The notes under the pieces: generated by a model
Told to the model about the DNA's origin: nothing
The model's input: only the letters and a program-made list of their open reading frames with translations
Database searches by the model: none
In this document: positions 20,494 through 37,083 of the stretch, one piece after another
How positions within the stretch are numbered: position 1 is the stretch's first letter
How the letters are laid out: each line of letters opens with the position of its first letter
Translations under genes and position numbers: made by a program
Assembly: GCF_034347385.1 (NCBI RefSeq)
Contig: NZ_CP133777.1
Span: 3,410,001-3,474,000, forward strand
Direction of reading: 5' to 3'
Length of the DNA stretch: 64,000 bases
From: Actimicrobium sp. CCC2.4
GTDB taxonomy: Bacteria; Pseudomonadota; Gammaproteobacteria; Burkholderiales; Burkholderiaceae_D

Positions 20494-20880
20494 TTACAAC
20501 CCGTCCGGCATCGTCATCCCTGCGCGCAGCGCGGCGTCCCTGAGCGATTTCAGCACGGTGGATTCATTGAATGGCTTGATGATGAATCCGCTGGCACCGA
20601 GCGACAGGCACTGCTTGATGGTGTCCACGTTGCGTTCGCCGCTGACCATCAGCACGATCATCTTGTCGAGCTCGGCGCGCAGCTGCTTGAGGACGTCGAT
20701 GCCGCTGATGTCCGGCATCACGATATCCAGACAGACCACTTGCGGCTTGAGTTTCATGATCAGCTCGTAGCCGTTGTTGCCGTTGCTGGCTTCGCCAATG
20801 ACCTGCAAGCCGCTACGAACCAGCATCGCGCGCAGGACGGTGCGGGTCATTTCATTGTCATCGATGATCAGTGCGTTCAA
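20494..20880 (-). CDS. Stand-alone response-regulator receiver (CheY-like)
   Basis: A 128-residue single receiver domain. The acidic pair is in ALIIDDNEMTR, the phospho-acceptor Asp in VVCLDIVMPD, the switch Ser in VLMVSGERN and the Lys in GFIIKPF. No output domain is attached, so it would act by protein contact or phosphotransfer. It is closely related to the next gene (shared DDNEMTRTVLRAML, SGI.VLKQL, GASGFIIKPFN..TVLK.L.DAALRAG), a recent duplication. No kinase lies nearby. Confidence 0.9.
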   Translation of the reverse strand: MNALIIDDNEMTRTVLRAMLVRSGLQVIGEASNGNNGYELIMKLKPQVVCLDIVMPDISGIDVLKQLRAELDKMIVLMVSGERNVDTIKQCLSLGASGFIIKPFNESTVLKSLRDAALRAGMTMPDGL

Positions 20881-20950: not shown

Positions 20951-21355
20951 CTAATGCGCCGGCTTATGCCCCGCCCGCAGCGCCGCATCGGCAAGTGCCT
21001 TGAGCACGGTCGCGGCATTGAACGGCTTGATGATGAAGCCGCTGGCACCGGCGGCCACGCACTGCCTGATCGTGTCGGTATCCCGCTCTCCGGTGACCAT
21101 CAGCACGACGACTTGCGGCATCGCTTCCTTGAGCTGTTTGAGCACCTCGATACCGCTCAGATCGGGCATCAGGATGTCGAGGAACACAATGTCGGGCAGC
21201 AGCTTGAGTGCCAGTTCGAGCCCGGTTTTGCCGTTGCCCGCTTCCCCGCACACATGATGAACGGTGCCGAACAGCATCGCCCGCAACACCGTGCGGGTCA
21301 TCTCATTGTCGTCAACGATCAATACGTTCAATGGGGTTGTCCAAGTTACCACCAT
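20951..21355 (-). CDS. Stand-alone response-regulator receiver (CheY-like), paralogue
   Basis: A 134-residue receiver: NVLIVDDNEMTRTVLRAMLFG, acceptor Asp in IVFLDILMPD, switch Thr in VLMVTGERD, Lys in GFIIKPF. It lies 70 bp upstream of the other receiver in the same direction. The pair differs at the switch residue (Thr here, Ser there), so kinetics or partners may differ. Function unknown; a motility or phosphorelay role is only a guess. Confidence 0.9.
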   Translation of the reverse strand: MVVTWTTPLNVLIVDDNEMTRTVLRAMLFGTVHHVCGEAGNGKTGLELALKLLPDIVFLDILMPDLSGIEVLKQLKEAMPQVVVLMVTGERDTDTIRQCVAAGASGFIIKPFNAATVLKALADAALRAGHKPAH

Positions 21356-21742: not shown

Positions 21743-22729
21743 TCACACCGGCCAATTCCCCGACTGCCAGGCGCGCCCCTGCTTGTCGATCAACAGCACA
21801 TCCACTTCCGTCAACGTCGCCACCAGCGCCATCGCCCGCTGCGCGCCTAACACCATCAACGTGGTCGATAAACCATCGGCCTGCAACCCGGTCGGTGCCA
21901 CCACCGTCACGCTGGCCAATTCAAGCGGTGAGTCACCACTGGCCGGATCAAAAATATGGTGATGCACAAAGTCGGGCGTAAAGACCGTCTGGTAATCGCC
22001 CGACGTGGCCACGCAGCGCTGCTGCATCGGTAGCACGCCAGCCAATTGCTGCGCATCGCGCGGCTCACGGATGCCGATGGTCCAGGCCTGTTGCGCGGTC
22101 TTGCGGCCACGCGCGCCGAACTCGCCGGTGTCAATCAACGCATGTCGGATGCCGTGCGCATCCAGCACGGCGCGGGCGCGGTCGACTGCAAAGCCCTGCG
22201 CGATGCCATTGAGCGTGATTGCCATGCCGGGTCGCGCCAGGCGGACACGCTGCGACGTGACCTGCACTTGCCGCCAATCGACCAGCGCCATCGCAGCGCG
22301 ACGTTCTGCATCCGTCGGCAAACGGTTTTGCTGCGACGCCGCACTAAAGGCCTGCCACAGCGATTGCACGGTAATGTCAAAAGCGCCCTCGCTGCTACGC
22401 GACAAGTCGTCCGCGTAAGCCAGCACGCGCAGCAGCCACGGATGCGCTTGCTCCAGCACGCCGGTGCGGTTGAGGATCGCAATCTGGCTGTCGGTCCGGT
22501 GCAGCGTCATCAGCCGGTCGACCTGGCGCGCGGCAGCAAGCGCTGCGGTGATGGCCAGCTCGGCCTGCGGCCGGTCAGCATGCACGACCTCAATCGAAAT
22601 CGTGGTGCCGAACGCCAGCGCGGCACCGCTGACACTGTGCAGCGGTACACCGCCATTGGCACCCGAGGAATTGGCCAGCGCCAGCCCGAGTCCGAGCCCG
22701 CCTGCCATGAATGTTCGCCTGTCCATCAT
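21743..22729 (-). CDS. ApbE/NosX-type FAD:protein FMN transferase
   Basis: A 328-residue exported protein. The N-terminus DRRTFMAGGLGLGLALANSSG carries a twin-Arg-like motif and hydrophobic stretch. ApbE signatures are present: TLNGIAQGFAVDRARAVLDAHGIRHALIDTGEFGARG, CVATSGDYQTVF and HIFDPASGDSP. The enzyme covalently attaches FMN to a Thr/Ser of partner proteins on the periplasmic side. Its ATG overlaps the stop of the NosR-like gene by 4 bp, so the NosR-like FMN-binding domain (Asp160-x5-Thr166) is the obvious substrate. NosX is the name used when the pair serves nitrous oxide reductase; no nosZ is in this window. Confidence 0.9.
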   Translation of the reverse strand: MMDRRTFMAGGLGLGLALANSSGANGGVPLHSVSGAALAFGTTISIEVVHADRPQAELAITAALAAARQVDRLMTLHRTDSQIAILNRTGVLEQAHPWLLRVLAYADDLSRSSEGAFDITVQSLWQAFSAASQQNRLPTDAERRAAMALVDWRQVQVTSQRVRLARPGMAITLNGIAQGFAVDRARAVLDAHGIRHALIDTGEFGARGRKTAQQAWTIGIREPRDAQQLAGVLPMQQRCVATSGDYQTVFTPDFVHHHIFDPASGDSPLELASVTVVAPTGLQADGLSTTLMVLGAQRAMALVATLTEVDVLLIDKQGRAWQSGNWPV

Positions 22730-24843
22730 TTTTCCTCTGCCGGTGCAACGTCGATCGGGATGATGCGGGCGCGCTTTTTTTCCATGATCAGCGGCGCGCA
22801 TTTCTCGTCGCTCTCGTGGATCACGACGCAATCAAGACACTGAAAACATTCGTCGTACTGGATCACACCACTGGGCTTGATGGCCTTGTATTCGCAGCTG
22901 TGCCGGCAGGTCTGGCACGGCGTGCCGCAGGCCGCGCGACGCGGCAGCCAGTCCAGAATGCGGAAGCGTCCGAGCACCGCCAGCCCGGCCCCGAACGGAC
23001 ACAGATAGCGGCAGAAAAATTTATAGCTGAACATCGACAACAGCAGCAAGCCGACCGCATACGCGACATACGGCCACGAGCGCACGAAGTTGAGCGTGAT
23101 GGCGGTCTTGAACGGTTCGAATTCGACCAGCTTGTCGGTCAGCGTCGCCGAAAAAAATGCGCTACCGATGATCGCTGCCAGCAGCACGTACTTGAGCAGT
23201 TTCAGGCGGCCATCGAGGCCCGGCCGGATCATCAATTGCGGAAATTTCAGCCACTGGCCGAGCTTGCCGGTGAACTCCTGCAGCGCGCCGAACGGACACA
23301 GCCACCCGCAAAACGTACCGCGTCCCCACACCACCAGCGACACCAGCACGAAGGCCCACAGGCTCACACTCATCGGGTCGTACAACAGGAACTCCAGACT
23401 GCGTCCGGCCATCAGCGATTGCACGACGCTGGTCAGGTTGACGATCGATAGCTGGCCTTGCGCGTACCAGCCGATGAACCCCGCCGTGAAGACCAGAAAG
23501 GCACGCCGGAACCAGATAAACCTGCGCTCGTGCGCGACCAGTTTTTTCTGCAGCAGTAGCGCCACTGACAGCACCGCCAGCGCCACGGCTAATATCGCCA
23601 GCTCCCACCAGCGCTGCCACCAGATCGCGCGCCAGGTCTTGTTGTCGGGTTCGGCTGCGACATAAAATTCGGCCGGCAGATTGACCGAGAAGCGCAGGTC
23701 ACGGCTGATTTTTTCGGGATAGAGAATGCCTTTGCTGCGCGTCACATGCAGAAAAAATTCCAGCGGCAGCGACGGATCGAGTCCCGACTGGCTGATCACG
23801 CGAAAGATCTTGAAGCCATTTTCCGGCACGCCAGCGACCTCGATATCGAGATCGAGGTCGCGGATTTCGATCGGCAGCGTGCCCTGCTTGAGCGCCAGCC
23901 GATCCGGTACCGCACCGCGCGTGAAGTCGTCGCCGACCACGCCGTAGCGTCCGGTCGACACCAGCATGATGGCGTGATCACCCGGTTCCAGCCGGGCCTT
24001 CAATTTAGCCCAGCCAGCCTCGCCGAGCAGGTTGCGACCGATCGCCGGCACCGACACGTAACTGGCTTCCATGTCGATGAACGGCGCGTCGGGTTGCGCC
24101 AGCGCGATCGGATCCAGCCCCTCGCCGGCGCTGCCGGCGAAGGCCGCTTCGATCTCGCGGTTGCGCATGACGACCGGCTGGATCAGGCCGCGCTGGCGCA
24201 GCGTCGCGGGGCTGATCACGGTACCGGCATCGGGCCGGATGCGGGCGATCAGGTCAGGGTCGCGGCCCTCGGCGAAACCGAGTTTTTTGCGCGCAACGTT
24301 CAACGCAGCTGACAGCGCGCTCTGGTTCAGGATGCGTACCGACGCGGTCGCCTTCGAGACGCCGTCGATGTAGACATTGGCCGCTTCCTTGTTCGAGCGG
24401 CTCATGTTGCCGGTACTGATCTTGATGTTCTGCTTGAGCGAGATGCCCTGGTACTGGCTGACGAACTTGAACAGCGGCGCTTCGCCGAGGCCGTCGAGGA
24501 AGACCGGTTCGTGATGCGACAGCACTTTCACGTCGACAAAACTGCCGGCCGGATCGAGCGCGATCAGCAGGTTCATCGGCACGCCGGAAAAGCCGGGGAT
24601 AGGCGCAAAGTCGATGGACTCGAAGACATACGCAACGAGTTCGGTCGAGGTCATGTTCTTCTTGAAAATCGGCCAGACGGGCAAAGCGGAGTCCTTGTCA
24701 CCCACAAGGTAAGGAGCCGGAAAGCGGCGCGCGAGTTCGGCCTGCGTCATCGTGCCGGCGCTGGCGGGCAGCGCGATCAACACCCACGGGAGCAGCACTG
24801 AGCAGAACAGCAGACGGCGTAATGACAGGATTATTTTTTCCAT
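22726..24843 (-). CDS. NosR/NirI-like flavin and iron-sulfur transmembrane electron-transfer protein
   Basis: A 705-residue protein. A signal/anchor helix leads to a periplasmic FMN-binding domain with DGVSKATAS (Asp160, probable flavinylated Thr166; the usual Gly of the SGAT motif is Lys). A long beta-rich periplasmic part and about six membrane helices follow. Two membrane motifs, CGWLCPFG and CRYLCPFG, and cytoplasmic Cys clusters CGTPCQTCRHSC and CFQCLDC complete the NosR plan. Such proteins pass electrons across the inner membrane between quinol or cytoplasmic carriers and periplasmic redox enzymes. Here the neighbours are PQQ-dehydrogenase genes, so it probably serves alcohol oxidation or its cytochrome rather than N2O reduction. 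That assignment is inference from context. Confidence 0.88.
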   Translation of the reverse strand: MEKIILSLRRLLFCSVLLPWVLIALPASAGTMTQAELARRFPAPYLVGDKDSALPVWPIFKKNMTSTELVAYVFESIDFAPIPGFSGVPMNLLIALDPAGSFVDVKVLSHHEPVFLDGLGEAPLFKFVSQYQGISLKQNIKISTGNMSRSNKEAANVYIDGVSKATASVRILNQSALSAALNVARKKLGFAEGRDPDLIARIRPDAGTVISPATLRQRGLIQPVVMRNREIEAAFAGSAGEGLDPIALAQPDAPFIDMEASYVSVPAIGRNLLGEAGWAKLKARLEPGDHAIMLVSTGRYGVVGDDFTRGAVPDRLALKQGTLPIEIRDLDLDIEVAGVPENGFKIFRVISQSGLDPSLPLEFFLHVTRSKGILYPEKISRDLRFSVNLPAEFYVAAEPDNKTWRAIWWQRWWELAILAVALAVLSVALLLQKKLVAHERRFIWFRRAFLVFTAGFIGWYAQGQLSIVNLTSVVQSLMAGRSLEFLLYDPMSVSLWAFVLVSLVVWGRGTFCGWLCPFGALQEFTGKLGQWLKFPQLMIRPGLDGRLKLLKYVLLAAIIGSAFFSATLTDKLVEFEPFKTAITLNFVRSWPYVAYAVGLLLLSMFSYKFFCRYLCPFGAGLAVLGRFRILDWLPRRAACGTPCQTCRHSCEYKAIKPSGVIQYDECFQCLDCVVIHESDEKCAPLIMEKKRARIIPIDVAPAEEK

Positions 24844-24867: not shown

Positions 24868-24896
24868 AAAACGCCGCGTGCTCAGGCACGCAGCGC
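24868..24896 (-). terminator. Rho-independent terminator after the MoxJ-like gene
   Basis: On the minus strand GCGTGC-CTGA-GCACGC, extended by CGC/GCG beyond a mismatch, is followed by six T residues. It separates the pedF/moxJ-like transcript from the NosR-apbE unit, so the latter may have its own promoter or depend on read-through. Confidence 0.6.
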
Positions 24897-25008: not shown

Positions 25009-25860
25009 CTACGGCTTGACGATCTGCACACCATGCTTGGCAAAAATACGCAGCATCTCGCCCGATGCGAACAGGGAATCCATCGCCTCTTTCAACGCAC
25101 TAGCCAACTCCGGATTGTCCTTCTTGACCGCCAGCCCTGCGGTCCAGCCCTTGCGCGGCAAGCGCTGAAAAGTCACTTCGCGCATCTCGAAACGCGGATC
25201 ATCGCGCAGCACCGATTCGATTTCGGAGCGGCTGGCCAGTACGCCATCGAGCTCGCCCGCCTTGAGTTTTTCAAGCGCATCGACGCCGGTCGGGAAGATG
25301 CGCACATCATCCCGGTAGCGACCGTTTTCTTCACCCAGCAGGACCATCGCCGAGATCGAGATTTTTTCGACGCCGATCTTTTTTCCTGCCATCGATGCGA
25401 TGCCATTGAACTGCGGCACCGAGGCCACGCTGCGCACCAGCCGGACCGAGTCCGTGTGGTACGGCGCAAAGATCGTCACTTGCGGATTCTGGTTCATCAG
25501 TAGCGGGTCGACCGGCACATGCAGCATCACGTCGGCCGGACCATAGCCGAGGTAGTGACCTTTCCAGACCATATTGCGCAAGTCGTCACCGAGATTTTCG
25601 CCGGCCGGAAACGGCAGGAAGGACACCTTCAATCCCATCTTCCTGCCGAGCGCTTCGGCCACGTCGACGTCGATGCCACTGAGTGCCTTGCTGCCGCCGG
25701 CTTTTTTCGAGTACGGCAGATTGTCGTCATAAACACCGACACTGAGCGACCCCAGCGTGCGGATCTTGTCGAGATCAGCGTGCGCCGGCCAGCTCAGCAG
25801 CATGCCGGACCACGCGATAGCAGCCAGTAGCGCAGTACGTCTTTTCAGATAAACCATCAT
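25009..25860 (-). CDS. MoxJ/XoxJ-like periplasmic binding protein of PQQ-dehydrogenase systems
   Basis: A 283-residue protein with a signal peptide (RTALLAAIAWSGMLLSWPAHAD). It has the fold of a family 3 solute-binding protein: LGSLSVGVYDDNLPYSKK, LSGIDVDVAEALGRKMGLKVSF, LKAGELDGVLASRSEIESVL. The quinoprotein-associated subgroup (MoxJ/XoxJ) binds or helps mature the PQQ alcohol dehydrogenase rather than importing a nutrient; no ABC permease is nearby. An AAGGT Shine-Dalgarno favours the ATG at 25860. It follows pedF by 37 bp in one transcript. The last codons (IVKP, TAG) lie in a family B repeat flank, so the C-terminus may have been altered. Confidence 0.87.
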   Translation of the reverse strand: MMVYLKRRTALLAAIAWSGMLLSWPAHADLDKIRTLGSLSVGVYDDNLPYSKKAGGSKALSGIDVDVAEALGRKMGLKVSFLPFPAGENLGDDLRNMVWKGHYLGYGPADVMLHVPVDPLLMNQNPQVTIFAPYHTDSVRLVRSVASVPQFNGIASMAGKKIGVEKISISAMVLLGEENGRYRDDVRIFPTGVDALEKLKAGELDGVLASRSEIESVLRDDPRFEMREVTFQRLPRKGWTAGLAVKKDNPELASALKEAMDSLFASGEMLRIFAKHGVQIVKP

Positions 25861-25897
25861 CAAGTGACCTTTCAGATTGAACGGAAAAACGGCCTGA

Positions 25898-26389
25898 CTA
25901 CTTCGCCGCGGTTACTGCCGGCATCACGCGCAGAGTTTCGAGGTAAGCCTTGATCGACCACATGCCTTCCTGGTTCATGATGCCTTCGAACGGCGGCATG
26001 TAGACGGCGCCGTTGCGGGTCTTGCCGTGCCGGATCGAGGTCAGGTAGTAGGCGTCGTTTTCCTTGTAACAGGCTTGCTTTTTCTTTTCATCTTTTTGCG
26101 AGACGCAGTCGCGATCAAGCTGACGCAGGTCCGGTGCAATGCCGCCGGAGACTGCTTCGAGGCCATGGCAGCGGGCGCAATTCTGGCCATACGCCGATGA
26201 GCCGATACGGATCGCTTCCTTGTCGCCGCGATACGGATTTTCTTCGCGCCAGACTTCACCCAGCGCCTTCAGCGTGGTGGTATCGACGGCTTGCGGTGTC
26301 ACGTCGCCGTGTGCCAGCGCTGGCAAGCACAGCAAGGCAGATGCAGCGATCAGAAGTTGGGCTGCGATGCGGCCTGTGCGCGTTTTCAT
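25898..26389 (-). CDS. pedF: PedF/XoxG-like periplasmic cytochrome c (PQQ-dehydrogenase electron acceptor)
   Basis: A 163-residue exported cytochrome (signal IAAQLLIAASALLCLPALAHG). It has a single haem site CARCHGLEAVSGG with a distal Met candidate in YMPPFEGIM. A Cys pair (RDCVSQKDEKKKQACYKEN) may form an extra disulfide, as in the c550 PedF family. It would take electrons from the PQQ alcohol dehydrogenase encoded at 28699-30465. GAGGTGA precedes the start. A perfect sigma-54 promoter lies 38-52 bp upstream, with a palindromic activator site beyond it. Confidence 0.9.
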   Translation of the reverse strand: MKTRTGRIAAQLLIAASALLCLPALAHGDVTPQAVDTTTLKALGEVWREENPYRGDKEAIRIGSSAYGQNCARCHGLEAVSGGIAPDLRQLDRDCVSQKDEKKKQACYKENDAYYLTSIRHGKTRNGAVYMPPFEGIMNQEGMWSIKAYLETLRVMPAVTAAK

Positions 26390-26426
26390 GGGGATGTCAC
26401 CTCGGTGGAATAGATGCCTTCTCTAC

Positions 26427-26441
26427 GCAAAGTACGTGCCA
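26427..26441 (-). promoter_or_regulatory. Sigma-54 promoter of pedF
   Basis: The minus strand reads TGGCACGTACTTTGC, an exact TGGCAC-N5-TTGC -24/-12 element. The adjacent divergent gene encodes an AcoR-type sigma-54 activator. Confidence 0.85.
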
Positions 26442-26561: not shown

Positions 26562-28535
26562 ATGCAGCCCCTCATCACTACGCGCTCGCAAAGTCATTCC
26601 CGTTTCACGTCCACGGGCACCGCAGTTGGCACGATTTCTGCTGAATGCGATATCACCATGATCGAAGAATCCCATCAGCGTTCCGCCAACTACGGCGTCC
26701 CGAGAACCGCCTCGCCGGATTACGATCCGCTTGGCCGCGCCGACATGGCCCTCGTGCTAGAACAGAACCGGCTATTGCACAGCCACGCCGCACCCGTGAT
26801 GGAAACGCTCTACGAGCAAATCATCAACACCCACAACATGGTGATCCTGACCGATGTCACCGGCCTGATCATCCACACGCTGGGCGACGCCGACTTCCTC
26901 GAAAAAGCCGATCGTGTCGCCCTGACGCCCGGCGTGGCGTGGTCGGAGCAAAGCAAGGGCACCAATGCGATCGGCACCGCCATCGCCGAAAAAGTGCCGA
27001 CCAGTATTCACGCCGATCAGCACTACCTCGATGCGAACCGCTTCCTGACCTGTTCAGCCGCCCCGATCTTCGACGTGATGGGTAATGTGGTCGGCGTGCT
27101 TGATGTCACCGGCGACCAGCATAATTTTCACAAGCACACGATGGCGCTGGTGCGGATGTCGGCGCAGATGATAGAGAACCAGCTGTTCGCCGCAGCCTTT
27201 GAAGAGTCGATCAAACTGAGCTTTCATAGCCGGCCGGAATTCCTTGGCACGCTGATGGAAGGGATTGCCAGCTTCACGCCGGGCGGTCGCTTTTTGTCGG
27301 CCAGCCGCAGCGGCCTGTTCCAGCTCGGCTTGCCGATGTCGGCCCTGCAGACGCATACCTTCAGCTCGCTGTTCGGTATGCCGATCTCGGCCCTGATGGA
27401 TCATTACCGGACCGCGTCACCAGGCCCGCTCCAACTGTGCCTGCACAGCGGCGTGCGGGTGTATGCGAAGTGCGCCGACCTGCGTCTGCCCACCACCAGT
27501 TTCCAGCACACGACCAGCAATGCACGCAGTACCGAGGCCGAGCCTGCCGCCGCGCCGCTGAGCAGCCACGAACAAAGCAAGGCGCGTCTGTCCAGCCTGC
27601 GCTACCTCAACACCGGCGACGAGCAGGTCGCCGTCGTCATCGACAAACTGAAAAAAGTCATCGGCCGCGATATCTCTATCCTGATCACCGGCGAGACCGG
27701 CACCGGCAAAGAATTGCTGGCGCAGGCGATTCACAATGATTCGCCGCGCAAGGCCGGCCCGTTCGTGGCAGTCAATTGCGCCTCGATTCCCGAGACGCTG
27801 ATCGAGTCCGAACTGTTCGGCTACGAAGACGGCGCCTTCACCGGCGCCCGCAAAAAAGGCAGCATCGGCAAGATCCTGCAAGCCAACGGCGGCTCGCTGT
27901 TTCTCGATGAAATCGGCGACATGCCGCTGAACTTGCAGGCGCGGCTGTTGCGCGTACTGCAGGAGCGCATGGTGACGCCGCTGGGCAGCACCAAGTCGAT
28001 CCCGGTGAACGTGGCGCTGACCTGCGCGACCAATCGCAACTTGCGCGATATGATTGCGCGCAATCTATTTCGTGATGACTTGTACTACCGCTTGAACGGG
28101 CTGGTGGTACGCCTGCCGCCGCTGCGCGAACGCACCGACCTTGACGTGGTCATCGACAAGCTGCTGGCCGCTGAAGGCAATGGCGTGCGCTATACGGTTG
28201 CGCCAGCCATCATGGCCATGTTCCGCTCGCATGGCTGGCCGGGTAATTTCCGCCAGCTAACCAACCTGATGCGCACCGCCATGGTGATGGCCGGTGACGA
28301 CCATGAAATCCGCATCGAGCATTTGCCGGACGACTTCCTGGACGATATCGCGACCACCGTCCCGGCGGCCGGCAAGTCCGTCAATCCGACGACCCATGAC
28401 GATCTGGCCACGCTCGAAGATGTCGAACTGTCGGTGATCCAGCAATCGCTGGCCGCGCATGATGGCAATGTATCTGCCACGGCGCGCGCGCTGGGTGTGT
28501 CGCGCAATACGATATATCGCAAGATTCATCCGTAG
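26562..28535 (+). CDS. AcoR-family sigma-54-dependent transcriptional activator
   Basis: A 657-residue protein. The N-terminal sensory part has a GAF domain (about residues 75-215: VILTDVTGLIIHTLGDADFLEKAD, WSEQSKGTNAIGTAIAEK, CSAAPIFDVMGNVVGVLDVTGD). The AAA+ domain has Walker A GETGTGKE, the sigma-54 contact loop GAFTGA, Walker B (GSLFLDEIGD) and the arginine-finger region. The C-terminal Fis-type HTH reads GNVSATARALGVSRNTIYRKI. AcoR-type activators respond to alcohols, aldehydes or ketones. GGAGA precedes the ATG. It diverges from pedF and is surrounded by four sigma-54 promoters, so it is the likely master activator of the alcohol-oxidation genes. The inducer cannot be read from the sequence. 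Confidence 0.93.
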   Translation: MQPLITTRSQSHSRFTSTGTAVGTISAECDITMIEESHQRSANYGVPRTASPDYDPLGRADMALVLEQNRLLHSHAAPVMETLYEQIINTHNMVILTDVTGLIIHTLGDADFLEKADRVALTPGVAWSEQSKGTNAIGTAIAEKVPTSIHADQHYLDANRFLTCSAAPIFDVMGNVVGVLDVTGDQHNFHKHTMALVRMSAQMIENQLFAAAFEESIKLSFHSRPEFLGTLMEGIASFTPGGRFLSASRSGLFQLGLPMSALQTHTFSSLFGMPISALMDHYRTASPGPLQLCLHSGVRVYAKCADLRLPTTSFQHTTSNARSTEAEPAAAPLSSHEQSKARLSSLRYLNTGDEQVAVVIDKLKKVIGRDISILITGETGTGKELLAQAIHNDSPRKAGPFVAVNCASIPETLIESELFGYEDGAFTGARKKGSIGKILQANGGSLFLDEIGDMPLNLQARLLRVLQERMVTPLGSTKSIPVNVALTCATNRNLRDMIARNLFRDDLYYRLNGLVVRLPPLRERTDLDVVIDKLLAAEGNGVRYTVAPAIMAMFRSHGWPGNFRQLTNLMRTAMVMAGDDHEIRIEHLPDDFLDDIATTVPAAGKSVNPTTHDDLATLEDVELSVIQQSLAAHDGNVSATARALGVSRNTIYRKIHP

Positions 28536-28698: not shown

Positions 28699-30465
28699 TT
28701 ACTTCGATGCAACCGCCGTCGATCCCGCCAGCTTGAAGACCCAGACCGATCCGCCTTGCTCAAGGTAGCTGACCTTGGCCGCCACGTCGCCACCCCACAG
28801 CGGCACGGCACCACCCCAACCCGAGACTACCGCCACGTATTGCACGCCGCCATCCATCCAGGTGATCGGTGGTGCCACGACGCCGGAGCCGGTCTGGAAT
28901 TTCCAGAGTTCCTTGCCGGTGCGGGCATCAAGTGCTTTCAGGAAGCCTTCCGGCGTACCGTAAAACACCAGGTCGCCAGCGGTGGTCATCACGCCACCCC
29001 ACAATGGCGCGACGTTCTTGTTCTCCCAGACGATCTTGCCGGTCTTCGGATCCATCGCGCGCAAGGCACCGATGTAGTCGTCATTGATGGTCCGGATGGC
29101 AAAGCCGGCACCCAGGAAGGCCGCGCCTTTTTTGTAGCCGACCGGCTCATTCCAGATTTCCATGGCCCATTCGTTGGCAGGCACATAGAACAGGTTGGTC
29201 TTCGGACTGTAGGCCATCGGCATCTGGTTTTTACCGCCGAGGAAAGATGGCGCGGCGTACACGGTCGTGCCTTTCTTGCCGTCCGCCCCTTTGGTCGGAT
29301 CGCCGGGACGACCTGCTTCGATGTAGTTCGGACGACCGGTTTTCAGGTCGATGCTGGAGGCCCAGGTAATTTTCTTGACGAACGGGAAGGCGTTTTCCAG
29401 CTTGCCGCTTTTGGCATCAAGCACGTAGAAAAAGCCGTTGCGGTCAGCCTTGCCGCCCATGCGCTTACCGCCCATGTCGAAGGTGATCAGTTCATTGACG
29501 CCGTCGTAGTCCCAGCCATCATGCGGCGTGGTCTGGTAATGCCACTTGATGTCGCCGGTCATGACGTCGAGGGCGACCGTCGAGGAGGAATACAGGTTGT
29601 CGCCAGGACGCAGATGGCTGTTCCAGGGCGACGGATTGCCGGTGCCGAAATACGCGAGGCCGGTGGTGGCGTCATAAGTGCCGCCCAGCCAGGTCGCTGC
29701 GCCGCCGGTTTTCCAGAGTTCGCCGGGCCAGGTTTTGTTGAGCGTGCCGGAAATCCCGAGTTCGGTTTTCTTGCCATCCTTGTCGTACTTGTAGCCCATG
29801 TGACCTTCGACGGTCGGACGCATCCAGATCAGCCTGCCGGTCATCGGGTCGCGTGCTTCGACCCGGCCGACCACGCCGAATTCGCCACCGGAGACGCCAG
29901 TCAGCAACATGCCTTTGGCGATCAGCGGCGCGGCGGTGTTCGAATAGCCGGCGGCGTAATCATCGATCTTTTCTTTCCAGACGAGGTTGCCGGTGGCTTG
30001 ATCCAGCGCGACCAGCTGGGCATCGAGGGTACTGAAAATGACGAGGTTACCGAACAGCGCAGCGCCGCGGTTGACCACGTCGCAACAAGGCATGATGCCT
30101 TCCGGCAGACGGTGCTCGTACTTCCAGATCTTCGCGCCGGTCTTCACGTCCAGCGCGTAAATACGCGAGTACGAACCGGTGACGAACATACGGCCGTCGT
30201 GGACCACCGGTTGCGATTCCTGGCCGCGCTGCTTCTCGCCGCCAAATGAAAACGACCATGCCGGTACCAGGCCGCTAATGGTTTTAGTGTTGAGCTGGGT
30301 CAGCGTCGAATAGCGCTGACCCTGCGTGCCCATGCCGTAAGACAGCACGTCGTTGCCTGATTTTTCATCATTGGCAATCATCGCGTCCGTCACGTCGACG
30401 GCATGCGCCGGCAACGCGCCGGCTAGCGCGCTCACAATCAGTGTCCCCAACAATTTTTTGTACAT
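28699..30465 (-). CDS. PQQ-dependent alcohol dehydrogenase, lanthanide-type (ExaF/PedH/XoxF-like)
   Basis: A 588-residue periplasmic quinoprotein with signal peptide ([18 protein letters not shown]) and an eight-bladed W-motif propeller. The vicinal disulfide Cys127-Cys128 (GIMPCCDV) is the hallmark of this family. Metal/PQQ residues seen: Glu195 (SGGEFG), Asn277 (GTGNPSPWN), catalytic Asp319 and Asp321 in DGWDYDG. The extra Asp two residues after the catalytic Asp is the established mark of lanthanide-dependent enzymes (XoxF, ExaF, PedH); calcium enzymes have Ala or Ser there. It oxidises primary alcohols to aldehydes and hands electrons to cytochrome c. The start at 30465 has a GGAGGGG Shine-Dalgarno. 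A sigma-54 promoter lies 79-93 bp upstream. Confidence 0.93.
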
Positions 30466-30543
30466 AGTCCCCTCCGGTTGAATGAAATGCGCTTCAGGCT
30501 GTGATCGGTCTGGGCCGGGCAATGCAGTCCTGATGCTCTATAG

Positions 30544-30558
30544 GCAATCGGCGTGCCA
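30544..30558 (-). promoter_or_regulatory. Sigma-54 promoter of the PQQ alcohol dehydrogenase
   Basis: The minus strand reads TGGCACGCCGATTGC, an exact -24/-12 match. It differs from the aldehyde dehydrogenase and cytochrome b561 promoters by one base. A possible activator half-site GGTGTACCAG lies upstream, near 30597-30606. Confidence 0.85.
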
Positions 30559-31420: not shown

Positions 31421-31480
31421 GTCAACGTCAACGTCAACGTCAACGTCAACGTCAACGTCAACTTCAACTTCAACTTCAAA
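31421..31480. repeat. Hexanucleotide tandem repeat (GTCAAC)7 then TTCAAC units
   Basis: Seven perfect GTCAAC units from 31421 to 31462 are followed by TTCAAC, TTCAAC and TTCAAA. The tract lies between the DUF779 and aldehyde dehydrogenase genes, is a multiple of three long, and is probably variable in copy number. I see no gene that uses it. Confidence 0.9.
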
Positions 31481-31537: not shown

Positions 31538-33058
31538 TTAGAAAAACCCCATCGCGTTCGGGCTATAACTCACCAGCAGATTCTTGGTCTGCTGATAATG
31601 CTCGAGCATCATCTTGTGATTTTCGCGGCCGATACCGGATTGCTTGTAGCCACCGAACGCGGCATGGGCCGGATACAGGTGATAGCAGTTGGTCCAGACG
31701 CGACCGGCCTGAATGCCACGCCCGACCCGGAATGCACGCGACCCGTCGCGGGTCCACAAGCCCGAACCAAGACCATACAAGGTGTCGTTGGCGATCTCGA
31801 GCGCTTCGTCTTCGTCCTTGAAAGTCGTCACCGACACCACCGGCCCGAAGATCTCTTCCTGGAAAATACGCATCTTGTTATTGCCCTGAAAGATAGTCGG
31901 CTGGACGTAGTACCCGCCGGCCAGATCGCCTTCGAGCATCTTGCGTTCGCCGCCGATGAGGCACTTGGCGCCTTCCTGTTTGCCGATGTCCAGATAGGAC
32001 AGGATTTTTTCGAGCTGCTCATGCGAGGCCTGCGCACCGATCTGCGTCGACATCTCGAACGGGTTGCCTTGCTTGATGGCGGCGACGCGTTTGACGGCGC
32101 GCTCGATGAAGCGCTCGTAGATCGATTCCTGGATCAGCACGCGCGACGGGCAGGTGCAGACTTCCCCCTGGTTCAGCGCAAACATCGCAAAGCCTTCGAG
32201 GCACTTGTCAAAGAAGGCATCGTCCTGGTCCATCACGTCGGCAAAGAAAATGTTCGGCGATTTGCCGCCTAGTTCCAGCGTCACCGGGATGATGTTCTGT
32301 GCGGCGTATTGCATGATCAGGCGACCGGTACCGGTTTCGCCGGTGAAGGCGATCTTGGCGATGCGCTTGTTCGAGGCCAGCGGTTTGCCGGCTTCGAGGC
32401 CGAAACCGTTGACGATGTTGAGCACGCCCGGTGGCAGCAAATCCTTGATCAGGTCAACCCAGACCATGATCGACGCCGGCGTCTGTTCGGCCGGTTTCAG
32501 GACGATGCAGTTACCGGCAGCCAGTGCCGGCGCCATTTTCCAGACCGCCATCAGGATAGGAAAATTCCACGGAATGATCTGGCCGACCACGCCCAGCGGC
32601 TCATGAAAATGATAGGCGTAGGTTTCGGCATCGATCTGCGAGACGCTGCCTTCCTGGGCGCGGATGCAACCGGCGAAGTAGCGGAAATGATCGATCGCCA
32701 GCGGGATATCAGCCAGCGTGGTTTCGCGGATCGGCTTGCCGTTATCGATGGTTTCGGCCAGCGCCAGCAAGCCCAGATTGGCTTCCATGCGATCGGCGAT
32801 TTTGTTGAGGATATTGGAGCGATCGGCCAGCGATGTTTTGCCCCATGCCGTCTTGGCAGCATGCGCGGCGTCGAGGGCGAGTTCGATGTCTTCGGCCGTG
32901 GAACGGGCGATTTCGCAAAATGCCTTGCCGACGATCGGACTGACATTCTCGAAATATTCGCCTTTGACCGGCGGGACAAATTTGCCGCCGATGAAGTTGT
33001 CGTAGCGGGCTGCGAAAGGATTTTTTACGCCGAGCTTGCTGAAGTCTGCCATGTCCAT
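31538..33058 (-). CDS. NAD-dependent aldehyde dehydrogenase (ExaC/AcoD type)
   Basis: A 506-residue cytoplasmic enzyme. The catalytic Cys lies in [18 protein letters not shown] and the general-base Glu in [14 protein letters not shown]; the Rossmann segment is [14 protein letters not shown] and [45 protein letters not shown] is the typical C-terminus of the acetaldehyde dehydrogenase-2 group. It oxidises the aldehyde produced by the periplasmic alcohol dehydrogenase to the acid. The ATG at 33058 follows AGGAGCAGGA. A sigma-54 promoter lies 73-87 bp upstream. DUF779 follows 490 bp downstream across repeats. Confidence 0.94.
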
Positions 33059-33130
33059 TTTCCTGCTCCTCGTTGTGATGATGATGTCTCTGGTTGTTTG
33101 TCCGGGTGCCTGGTGCACGCATCACAATGA

Positions 33131-33145
33131 GCAATCGGCATGCCA
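33131..33145 (-). promoter_or_regulatory. Sigma-54 promoter of the aldehyde dehydrogenase
   Basis: The minus strand reads TGGCATGCCGATTGC. The same 15 bases recur on the plus strand at 33275-33289, giving a divergent promoter pair. Confidence 0.82.
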
Positions 33146-33394: not shown

Positions 33395-33952
33395 ATGCCC
33401 GACCATGTCACCCGCTCCGCCCGTTACAATCGCACCGCCGTCACGCTGCACTGGCTCATTGCCGCACTGCTGCTCGGCCAGTTCCTGTTCGGCTGGTACC
33501 TCGGCGACGTGCCGCGCAACACACCCGAACGGGGCATCTTCATCAACCTGCACAAGAGCACCGGCATCCTGATTGGCCTGCTGATCCTGCTACGTATTGT
33601 CTGGCGCCTGACCCATACACCGCCGGCGCTGCCGGACGCGACACCACGCTGGCAGCGCCACGCCGCGCGCATCAGCCATGGCGTGCTGTATGCCTGCATG
33701 CTGCTGATGCCGCTGTCGGGCTATATCGCCTCGAACTTTAGCAAGCATGGCGTGAAGCTGTTCAACATGGTCCGGCTCGCGCCATGGGGCAGCGATGACA
33801 AAGTGATCTACGCCTTCTTCAACCAGACCCACAAACTCACTGCGCTCGTGCTGGCGGCCTTCGTCGTTCTGCATATCCTCGCGGTCATCAAGCATCAGCT
33901 GATCGACCGCGATAACCTGATTTCGCGGATGTGGCCACGCGCCTCCCGTTAA
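33395..33952 (+). CDS. Cytochrome b561 family membrane protein
   Basis: A 185-residue protein with four membrane helices. His residues at RTAVTLHWLIAALLLGQFLFGW, INLHKSTGILIGLLILLRIVWRL, ISHGVLYACMLLMPLSGY and TLVLAAFVVLHILAVIKHQ-like positions are the di-haem b ligands of the bacterial b561 family. It would move electrons between periplasmic carriers and the quinone pool. I use the ATG at 33395 (MPDHVTRSARYNRTAVTLHW); an ATG at 33359 lacks a Shine-Dalgarno. Its sigma-54 promoter puts it in the alcohol-oxidation regulon, where it may return electrons to quinone. Confidence 0.9.
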   Translation: MPDHVTRSARYNRTAVTLHWLIAALLLGQFLFGWYLGDVPRNTPERGIFINLHKSTGILIGLLILLRIVWRLTHTPPALPDATPRWQRHAARISHGVLYACMLLMPLSGYIASNFSKHGVKLFNMVRLAPWGSDDKVIYAFFNQTHKLTALVLAAFVVLHILAVIKHQLIDRDNLISRMWPRASR

Positions 33953-33972
33953 TTTTTTCTGATTGGAATGCC

Positions 33973-34932
33973 ATGTTGATTCGTCGCTTGCTCGCCATCG
34001 CTTCTCTTGCTGCTGCGGTCGCCGCCACCCTCCCCGCTGCCGTCATCGCCGCGCCGTTTGCGTATGTGCCCAATGAAGGATCGGGCACGGTCTCGGTGAT
34101 CGATACCGCGACCGATCTGGTCGTCGCCGACATCCCGGCCGGCAAGAAGCCGCGCGGCATCGCCGCCGGTACCGACGGCCACTGGCTGTATGTCAGCGAC
34201 CAGCCCAACAACAGCCTGCAACTGATCGATCTGCGCGCGCGCAAACCGGCCGGCACCGTCGACCTCGGTGAATCGCCGGAAGGCGTGTCGATCTCGGCGG
34301 ATGGCCGCTGGGTGGTCGCGGCCGTCGAAGAGAAAAATGCGATTGCGGTCACTGATACGCGCACCAACAAGCTGGCCTTTTCGATCCAGGTCAAGGGCAA
34401 GAATCCCGAGCATGCGGTGTTCAGCCCGGACGGCAAACTGATCTTCGTCAGTGCCGAAGAAGGTGACGCCGTCGACGTGATCGACTTCGCCACGCGCAAG
34501 GAAGTCACGCAGATTGCGGTCGGCGCACGCCCGCGCGGCATCGGCTTTTTGCCCGATAGCAGCCGCGCCTATGTCGCCACCGAAAACAGCAATGAAGTCT
34601 TCGTCATCGATGCGCGCACCTTCAAGATCATCACCAAGGTCAAGGCCGGCCTGCGTGCCAATGGCATCACCGTGCATCCGGATGGCAGCCGCGTCTACAT
34701 CTCCAATGGCGGGGACGCCAGCGTATCGGTACTCGATACCGCCACCAATACCGTCATCGCCACCGTGCCGGTCGGCCAGCGCCCGTGGAACATGGCGATC
34801 ACGCCTGATGGCAAAAAACTGTATGTCGCCAATGGCCGCTCGGGCACCGTCTCGGTGATCGATACGGTGGCCAATACCAAATTGCGTGATGTCGCTACCG
34901 GCAAATTGCCATGGGGCGTGGTGATCCGCTGA
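33973..34932 (+). CDS. YVTN beta-propeller protein of PQQ-dependent catabolism
   Basis: A 319-residue exported protein (signal LLAIASLAAAVAATLPAAVIAAP). About seven repeats of the YVTN blade are visible: FAYVPNEGSGTVSVIDTATDLVVADIPAGKKPRGIA, WLYVSDQPNNSLQLIDLRARKPAGTV, through LYVANGRSGTVSVIDTVANTKLRDVATGKLPWGVVI. A YVTN subgroup is consistently encoded in PQQ-dehydrogenase clusters; its role is unproven, perhaps a scaffold or cofactor handler. It begins 21 bp after cytochrome b561 and precedes pqqU by 61 bp, suggesting one operon. Confidence 0.9.
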   Translation: MLIRRLLAIASLAAAVAATLPAAVIAAPFAYVPNEGSGTVSVIDTATDLVVADIPAGKKPRGIAAGTDGHWLYVSDQPNNSLQLIDLRARKPAGTVDLGESPEGVSISADGRWVVAAVEEKNAIAVTDTRTNKLAFSIQVKGKNPEHAVFSPDGKLIFVSAEEGDAVDVIDFATRKEVTQIAVGARPRGIGFLPDSSRAYVATENSNEVFVIDARTFKIITKVKAGLRANGITVHPDGSRVYISNGGDASVSVLDTATNTVIATVPVGQRPWNMAITPDGKKLYVANGRSGTVSVIDTVANTKLRDVATGKLPWGVVIR

Positions 34933-34992: not shown

Positions 34993-37083
34993 ATGACGAA
35001 TCGCTCCAAGCTGTGTAATTCCTTTCTGTTTGACCGCCGCACAATCGCCGCCCTTGCCGGTACGCTGGCCATGCCTTTTGTGCTGGCACAATCGGTCACG
35101 CCGGTCGAAGCTGTCGTGGTCAGTGCCAGCCGTTCGGCACAGACCCGTTTCGATGCGCCGGCTGCCATCGACGTGATCCAGGTCGATCCGTTTACCACCA
35201 TGTCGCCGCTGGTGAACCTGTCCGAACTGCTGGGATCGGTGCCCGGCCTGCAAGTGCGCGAGCGGCAGAATTTTGCCCAGGACTTGCAGATTTCGGTACG
35301 CGGTTTTGGTACCCGTTCGACCTTCGGCGTGCGCGGTGTGCGCATCCTGGTCGATGGCATTCCGGCGACAATGCCGGACGGCCAGGGCCAGGCGGCCACA
35401 GCCAATCTGGCCGCTGCGTCGCGCATCGAAGTCTTGCGCGGACCGATGGCGCAGCTGTACGGCAATGCTGCCGGCGGCGTGGTCCAGATCTTCACCAAAA
35501 ATCCGCCACGCGGCGCTGAACCGATGACCGGCTCGGTCACTGCCGGCGTCGGCGCGGATGGCCAGCGCCAGCTCGGCGCGGCGATCGCCGGTGGCAATGA
35601 CGTCATCGGCGGCACCTTCGATGTGTCGACCTATTCGACCGATGGCTATCGCGATCACAGTGCGGCGGAGCGCACGCAATTTTCCGGCAAGGTGGTCGTG
35701 CGACCGTCGGCGGCCACCACCATCACCGGGCTGGTCGGTTACTTCAACCAGCCGGAATCGCAGGATCCGCTTGGCCTCACGCGCGCGGCCTTCGAACAGA
35801 ATCCGCGCCAGGTCATCCCCGGCGCGCTGTTGTTCGACACCCGCAAGACCATCGAACAACAACAGGTCGGCGTCGTCGTCGAACACAAACTGGGCGGGAA
35901 CGACACGCTCAATGCGCGCGTCTATTCGGGCACGCGGCAGGTGTTCCAGACGCTGTCGTTCAAGGGCGATGGCGCGACCCAGTCCGGCGGCGTGATCGAC
36001 CTCGACCGCAACTATGCCGGCCTCGGCCTGAACTGGAATCACACAATGAAGGTCAATGACCTGCCACTGAGCTGGACGCTGGGTGTCGAAGCCGACAACC
36101 TGCGCGAACTGCGACGCGGCTTCGTCAACAACAACGGCACACCGGGTGCCTTGAAACGCGATGAAAAGGATACCGCCCGCAACCTGGATTTCTTTGGCCA
36201 GCTGGACTGGACTTTTTCGCCGCAATGGCGTGCCACGGCAGGCGTGCGCGCGAGCCGGGTGCGACTTGGTGTCGATGACCATTTTGGCGCGGATGACAGC
36301 GGCAAGGTCGAGTTCAACAAGACCAGCCCGGTCGCCGGTCTGGTCTGGAGTGTCGCCGACAACATCAACCTGTACGCCAATCTGGGCAAGGGTTTCGAAA
36401 CCCCGACGCTGGCCGAATCGGCCTACAGCACCGGCGGTGCCGGCCCGAACCTGAGCTTGCGCCCGTCGACCAGCACGCAAGTTGAACTCGGCGCCAAGAT
36501 CAAGAGCGGCCGGCATGCGATTGATCTGGCGGTATTCGATGCCCGCAGCAACGATGAAATCGTGCCGACCCAGACCAGCAATGGCCGTTCGATTTTCCAG
36601 AACGTCGATGGCGTACAGCGTCGCGGTATCGAGTCCTCGTGGCAGGCCCGCTGGGACAACAAGCTGACGACGCGCGTGGCCTACACTTGGCTCGATGCCA
36701 GTTTCCGCAAGGCGTACAGCACCAGTCCGGACACCCGCATCGCTGCCGGCAATCGCCTGCCGGGTGCACCGGAACATAGCCTATACACCGAAGCGGCCTA
36801 CCAGTGGAACGACGCCGTCAGTGCTGCGGTCGAGATGCGTGCCGAATCGAAGGTCTATGTCAACGATGTCAACAGCGCTGCCGCACCCGGCTATGCGGTG
36901 CTCAATGCGCGCACCGGTTACGCCTTCAAGGCCGGCGCCGCCAAGCTGTTCCTGTTCGGGCGCATCGACAACCTGCTCGACAAGCAATACGCCGGCTCGG
37001 TGATTGTCAATGACAGCAATGGTCGGTTCTATGAAGCAGCGGCGGGACGACGCTTGTTCGTTGGCTTGCGGGTGGCGTTGTAA
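34993..37083 (+). CDS. pqqU: TonB-dependent outer-membrane receptor for PQQ (PqqU/YncD-like)
   Basis: A 696-residue receptor with signal peptide (IAALAGTLAMPFVLAQS). The plug NLSELLGSVPGLQVRERQNFAQDLQISVRGFGTRSTFGVRGVRILVDGIPATMPDGQGQ and the C-terminus NLLDKQYAGSVIVNDSNGRFYEAAAGR parallel E. coli YncD, as I remember it, almost phrase by phrase. E. coli YncD was shown to import the cofactor pyrroloquinoline quinone and is now PqqU. The context, directly after PQQ-dehydrogenase accessory genes, fits this substrate. No pqq biosynthesis gene is present in the window, so the cell may scavenge PQQ, or the genes are elsewhere. It could alternatively take up a lanthanide chelate. Confidence 0.87.
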   Translation: MTNRSKLCNSFLFDRRTIAALAGTLAMPFVLAQSVTPVEAVVVSASRSAQTRFDAPAAIDVIQVDPFTTMSPLVNLSELLGSVPGLQVRERQNFAQDLQISVRGFGTRSTFGVRGVRILVDGIPATMPDGQGQAATANLAAASRIEVLRGPMAQLYGNAAGGVVQIFTKNPPRGAEPMTGSVTAGVGADGQRQLGAAIAGGNDVIGGTFDVSTYSTDGYRDHSAAERTQFSGKVVVRPSAATTITGLVGYFNQPESQDPLGLTRAAFEQNPRQVIPGALLFDTRKTIEQQQVGVVVEHKLGGNDTLNARVYSGTRQVFQTLSFKGDGATQSGGVIDLDRNYAGLGLNWNHTMKVNDLPLSWTLGVEADNLRELRRGFVNNNGTPGALKRDEKDTARNLDFFGQLDWTFSPQWRATAGVRASRVRLGVDDHFGADDSGKVEFNKTSPVAGLVWSVADNINLYANLGKGFETPTLAESAYSTGGAGPNLSLRPSTSTQVELGAKIKSGRHAIDLAVFDARSNDEIVPTQTSNGRSIFQNVDGVQRRGIESSWQARWDNKLTTRVAYTWLDASFRKAYSTSPDTRIAAGNRLPGAPEHSLYTEAAYQWNDAVSAAVEMRAESKVYVNDVNSAAAPGYAVLNARTGYAFKAGAAKLFLFGRIDNLLDKQYAGSVIVNDSNGRFYEAAAGRRLFVGLRVAL

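Follow-up and report, generated by a model that had tools for sequence, protein, structure and literature searches.

A NosR-like flavo-iron-sulfur protein encoded with an ApbE partner belongs to a clade tied to PedF and PQQ alcohol dehydrogenases

The NosR-like protein encoded beside the alcohol-oxidation genes of Actimicrobium sp. CCC2.4 is not a misplaced NosR of nitrous oxide respiration: it belongs to a PQQ-linked clade that stands apart from every nosZ-adjacent NosR and is tied near-obligately to the cytochrome PedF. Judged from motifs and gene context, the protein and the ApbE-type transferase encoded with it probably form a membrane flavo-iron-sulfur conduit dedicated to the PQQ dehydrogenase/PedF system, a reading that we hold with reasonable confidence as long as the direction of electron flow is set apart. 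The window is the whole stretch of 64,000 nucleotides that was analysed, and on its minus strand the genes run in the order PQQ alcohol dehydrogenase, pedF, family-3 binding protein, NosR-like gene and apbE. The features of the locus are as follows.

21743..22729, minus strand: ApbE/NosX-type FAD:protein FMN transferase, 328 aa (PF02424, 232 bits; ATGA overlap; LNGIAQG)
22726..24843, minus strand: NosR-like transmembrane flavo-iron-sulfur protein, 705 aa (NF046105, PF12801 twice, PF04205, AF2 model)
25009..25863, minus strand: MoxJ/PedG-like family-3 periplasmic binding protein (PF00497; a conserved neighbour in 28/30 well-flanked relatives)
25898..26389, minus strand: PedF cytochrome c550, haem motif CARCH (TIGR04494, 196 bits, cut-off 122)
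26562..28535, plus strand: AcoR-like sigma-54-dependent activator, between the dehydrogenase gene and pedF (GAF, PF00158 and HTH_8)
28699..30465, minus strand: PQQ alcohol dehydrogenase, PedH-like (TIGR03075, 750 bits; nearest solved relatives 6zcv/6zcw)
31538..33118, minus strand: ExaC-type acetaldehyde dehydrogenase (NF050026, 942 bits, cut-off 900); the real start is probably nearer 33060

The TTG start listed for apbE at 22831 is probably wrong. The preferred ATG at 22729 gives a protein of 328 aa with a Tat-like RRTF start, and overlaps the stop of the NosR-like gene by 4 nt. An earlier note on this DNA had claimed such an overlap, which holds, and had placed pedF and a MoxJ-like gene beside the NosR-like gene, where both are found on the same strand. 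Elsewhere in the window, we observed a TonB-dependent receptor gene (34993-37083, plus strand) whose best match is the PQQ uptake receptor PqqU (588 bits, cut-off 1200), and homologues of which (39-40%) adjoin the cluster at four other loci (L075, L077, L081 and L084). A beta-propeller protein resembling the PQQ-associated family TIGR03866 (219 bits, cut-off 287) is encoded at 33931-34932 on the plus strand, GTTGAC tandem repeats at 31421-31462 occupy the gap that separates the acetaldehyde dehydrogenase gene from a DUF779 gene, and a tandem pair of similar stand-alone response-regulator receiver proteins (20494-20880 and 20951-21355, minus strand) lies directly downstream of apbE.

The complete 4.15-Mb source genome encodes only one NosR-family protein. 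As the earlier note had remarked of the locus, no nos structural gene accompanies it, and a profile search for the canonical nosZ propeller family was negative across the whole genome, the same model being positive in 6 of 14 other genomes. In a tree of 73 proteins, a branch with an SH-aLRT value of 99 splits the proteins into two sets. One, of 36, contains 22 with PQQ-gene neighbours and none next to nosZ; in the other, of 37, 30 are next to nosZ and none has PQQ-gene neighbours. The same split was recovered in a bootstrapped tree of 36 proteins with full support (100/100), and was present in all 200 sampled bootstrap trees. Four gammaproteobacterial genomes (G321, G433, G467 and G578) carry one copy each of the clade protein and of the NosR kind. 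The window protein scores 582 bits against the NosR model NF046105, under its 1000-bit equivalog cut-off; this score is a weak divider, as two nosZ-adjacent NosRs also fall below 1000 bits (802 and 809). We also observed a further branch of the NosR family (L056-L060, from genomes G070, G065, G148, G039 and G216), encoded next to ApbE with the motif DGISSATVS, with no nosZ and no PedF above cut-off, which we read as a third partner system.

The protein shares with NosR of the Pseudomonas and Paracoccus nos clusters its domain order, the threonine of the FMN site, two CxxxCP motifs, eight C-terminal cysteines and a NosX/ApbE-type partner; it differs in its separate clade, the lack of nosZ, a Lys or Arg in place of Gly in the flavinylation motif, its linkage to PedF and a PQQ dehydrogenase, and an identity of only about 31-41%. 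Its redox sites, all encoded on the minus strand, are listed below.

24346..24366: flavinylation motif D160-G-V-S-K-A-T166 (alignment; Lys where NosR has Gly)
23296..23310: first membrane CxxxCP motif, C512 and C516 (invariant in the clade and NosR)
22999..23013: second membrane CxxxCP motif, C611 and C615 (invariant in the clade and NosR)
22798..22929: C-terminal ferredoxin-like region, Cys 639/643/646/650/666/669/672/682 (alignment)

The flavinylation site, the CxxxCP motifs and the cysteine clusters described in the earlier note are thus all present by alignment, the domain matches being 57 bits for Fer4_5 and a marginal 22.0 bits for FMN_bind (cut-off 22). The twelve cysteines of the two CxxxCP motifs and the C-terminal region are invariant in 68/68 clade members and 35/35 nosZ-adjacent NosRs, and by analogy with NosR the eight C-terminal residues are expected to hold two [4Fe-4S] clusters. 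By homology with NosR (PMC7660919), the N-terminal domain would be periplasmic and the iron-sulfur domain cytoplasmic. A sequence search among solved structures returned no NosR relative. In the AF2 model, which is of moderate quality (mean pLDDT 71), the FMN domain appears to resemble RnfG, the FMN subunit of Rnf: Foldseek ranked RnfG chains highest (probability 0.99-1.00, E 0.004-0.05).

Thr166 is kept in all 51 scored clade members. At position 5 of the motif, 64/68 clade members carry a basic residue (Lys in 57, Arg in 7), in contrast to the Gly of 35/35 nosZ-adjacent NosRs. Against the review consensus for ApbE targets, D-x-x-[S/T]-G-A-[S/T] (PMC12052999), every position of the window motif agrees except this one. 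A Gly-to-Ala change in the motif of one other test protein lowered flavinylation by about half (PMC12052999), which counts against taking modification of the clade motif for granted. We describe the clade variant as D-G-x-[S/T]-K/R-A-T, a putative site for covalent FMN. Looking for a matching change in the transferase, we found none: the ApbE signature LNGIAQG is also common to the nosZ-linked transferases. The most altered motifs belong to L051, L052 and L110, which make up a side branch with no PQQ genes nearby. The first two (8868-10994 in L051 and 8728-10638 in L052) are extra clade paralogues in one genome of the same family, G141; their motifs are degraded (HGVQAGT and RGIHTGT), with all 12 cysteines kept.

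The tie to PedF was quantified in 398 Pseudomonadota genomes, counting PedF above the TIGR04494 cut-off. PedF occurs in 34 of the 398 genomes and in all 16 that carry the clade (Fisher 1.6e-19, or 1.8e-18 when the window's genome is left out). Counting every genome as independent, as all the tests here do, overstates significance, but the clade genomes of this sample span eight families. Genomes with other NosR-family proteins have PedF at no more than background frequency (2/50). An order-level sample, which shares some genomes with the first, gave PedF in 4/4 clade genomes vs 22/300 overall (p 2e-5). In several clade genomes the gene lies away from the ped genes, and the two occur together though unlinked in G111, G356, G321, G578, G433, G467 and G368, and probably also in G170, where they are on separate contigs. 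The implication runs one way: 18/34 PedF genomes are without a clade protein, so the core pathway can do without it.

Neighbourhoods were compared in 30 relatives from named genomes whose loci have flanks of 6.5 kb or more on either side; they had been collected for their similarity to the window protein and are thus near relatives only. PedF and the binding protein are nearby in 28 of them and ApbE is within 1 kb in 27; no PedF, binding-protein or dehydrogenase gene occurs at any of 24 nosZ loci. The earlier note had proposed this tabulation, and had said that a nosZ cluster elsewhere in the genome that depends on this gene, or a lack both of an alcohol phenotype and of co-occurrence with PQQ dehydrogenases, would speak against its reading; the neighbour table favours that reading, canonical nosZ is absent and PedF accompanies the clade in every sampled genome.

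The nearest solved relatives of the dehydrogenase, 6zcv and 6zcw, are structures of what we take to be PedH of Pseudomonas putida. It carries the lanthanide-type signature WDYDG, in which one residue separates the catalytic Asp from a second Asp (WDxD), and an adjacent Cys pair at residue 146 of the ORF; WDxD is found in 17/17 linked relatives with a readable motif. By this signature the enzyme fits the PedH/ExaF lanthanide type and is predicted to use lanthanides, and pqqE is present in the genome. We considered whether a lanthanide-type enzyme predicts the NosR-like protein and rejected the idea: PedF clusters without the protein are mostly WDxD too, and the clade genome G321 has a Ca-type (WDFSG) enzyme beside pedF.

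In the mechanism that we propose, the NosX-type ApbE would attach FMN to the periplasmic domain at Thr166, as the motif and the gene pairing suggest, and electrons would run between FMN and the cytoplasmic iron-sulfur domain through the CxxxCP membrane segment, as homology implies. We cautiously prefer an outward flow, in which a quinol or a cytoplasmic donor would supply the periplasmic dehydrogenase/cytochrome module with electrons so that it stays redox-competent. NosR is believed to pass electrons on to NosZ (PMC7660919), and PceC has been proposed to donate them to a reductive dehalogenase (PMC5928378); we lean towards the outward direction because these relatives are believed to run outward, because PedF already serves to reoxidize PQQ (PMC12997753) and because the cytoplasmic iron-sulfur domain is fully conserved, which would suit a low-potential cytoplasmic donor better than an acceptor chain fed by PQQ. 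More speculatively, and with some doubt on our part, the NosR-derived conduit with its variant motif may spend cellular electrons to maintain or reactivate the PQQ dehydrogenase/cytochrome module.

An inward flow, in which the flavoprotein would draw on the PQQ dehydrogenase or PedF for electrons, feed them into the quinone pool and so do the job of a cytochrome c, seems to us less likely, though it is the strongest of the alternatives. Such a role has been proposed for clusters that pair a flavinylated NapH-like protein with ExaA (PMC8238504), and the downstream acceptor of PedF in P. putida is not yet known (PMC12997753). However, PedF, the known acceptor that reoxidizes PQQ (PMC12997753), is also present in every sampled clade genome, so the NosR-like protein would be a partner of the cytochrome rather than its replacement. 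The known relatives are thought to run the other way, and free FMN, at about -205 mV, is low for an acceptor from PQQH2, although protein-bound values vary widely. Of the flavin-based conduit for alcohol oxidation suggested in the earlier note, the link to PQQ alcohol oxidation stands (PedF in 16/16 clade genomes), while its sense as an electron outlet fits less well with the constant presence of PedF and the outward flow thought to occur in relatives.

A role as a redox sensor or regulator of the alcohol regulon, as was first proposed for NosR and nosZ, is improbable. In P. denitrificans, nosZ is no longer transcribed normally when NosR is lost (PMC7660919), and in Celeribacter (L101, 5585-9033) a FIST protein and a PAS/histidine kinase/receiver gene lie upstream of the NosR-like gene. 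However, a domain search found no DNA-binding or signalling domain in the NosR-like protein, and regulation is already accounted for by the sigma-54 activator and by sigma-54-like sites, of which the window holds 9 vs 3.3 expected. Three of these sites, together with a hairpin in the 165-nt gap between the stop of the binding-protein gene and the start of the NosR-like gene, bear on the transcription units.

26426..26441, minus strand: sigma-54 -24/-12-like site, 37 nt upstream of pedF (one mismatch)
30543..30558, minus strand: sigma-54-like site upstream of the PQQ alcohol dehydrogenase gene (one mismatch)
33130-33145: sigma-54-like site before the acetaldehyde dehydrogenase gene (one mismatch)
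24871..24896, minus strand: terminator-like hairpin between the binding-protein and NosR-like genes (11-bp stem, T6 tail, fold z -2.4)

Because of this hairpin, co-transcription of the NosR-like gene with pedF is not assured, and the NosR-like gene and apbE may form a separate or attenuated unit. The hairpin also offers some support to the idea that chance or common descent put the pair next to the ped genes, which is very improbable given that the gene order is conserved in beta- and alphaproteobacteria and that co-occurrence persists when the genes are unlinked. It is equally improbable that the protein serves a non-canonical nitrous oxide reductase encoded at another site in this genome: it is a NosR-family member and a lactonase-type NosZ (NF052460) is now in NCBIfam, outside the canonical family covered by our genome-wide search, but that search was negative here and worked on its positive controls, the beta-propeller protein of the window reaches only 94 bits against the lactonase-type cut-off of 700, and the clade tracks PedF, not nosZ.

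Parts of this picture are already known. In 172 genomes, Meheust et al. (2021) counted clusters that combine a flavinylated NapH-like protein and an ethanol oxidase, and they proposed a cytochrome c role for the flavin, with several independent origins (PMC8238504). An FMN-domain NapH-like protein near ApbE and an ExaA-type dehydrogenase is also what we find here, with the dehydrogenase gene a few genes upstream and pedF, the binding-protein gene and the activator gene between, so the locus is most likely of the same kind. Our findings differ in that PedF is always also present and that a single branch sets off the sampled PQQ-linked proteins together. RdhC/PceC of organohalide respiration shares the periplasmic FMN domain and membrane CxxxCP motifs; unlike the NosR-like protein, RdhC is without the C-terminal iron-sulfur region (PMC5928378), and its partner enzyme differs. 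PedF, a PedG-like binding protein and a PedH-type dehydrogenase are common to the Pseudomonas ped/exa cluster, a review of which does not mention a NosR-like gene (PMC12997753). Our literature search, which covered few subscription journals, found no publication on NosR-like proteins with PedF. The 'little-described branch' of the earlier note is a separate branch indeed, on the 100/100 split, though an association of flavinylated NapH-like proteins with ethanol oxidases has been published (PMC8238504). What is new here is the single well-supported clade, the motif variant, the near-obligate link to PedF, which extends to genomes where the genes are unlinked, and the finding that the cytochrome is there alongside the flavoprotein.

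Proteins of this clade will probably carry the annotation NosR and so give a false hint of nitrous oxide respiration; clade membership, the motif and the tie to PedF together provide a rule for telling them from NosR. The Lys/Arg motif puts the published consensus for ApbE targets to the test, and the NosR-like protein offers a genetic handle on the electron route beyond PedF. If the proposed outward flow is true, it would represent an electron-donating accessory inside an oxidation pathway.
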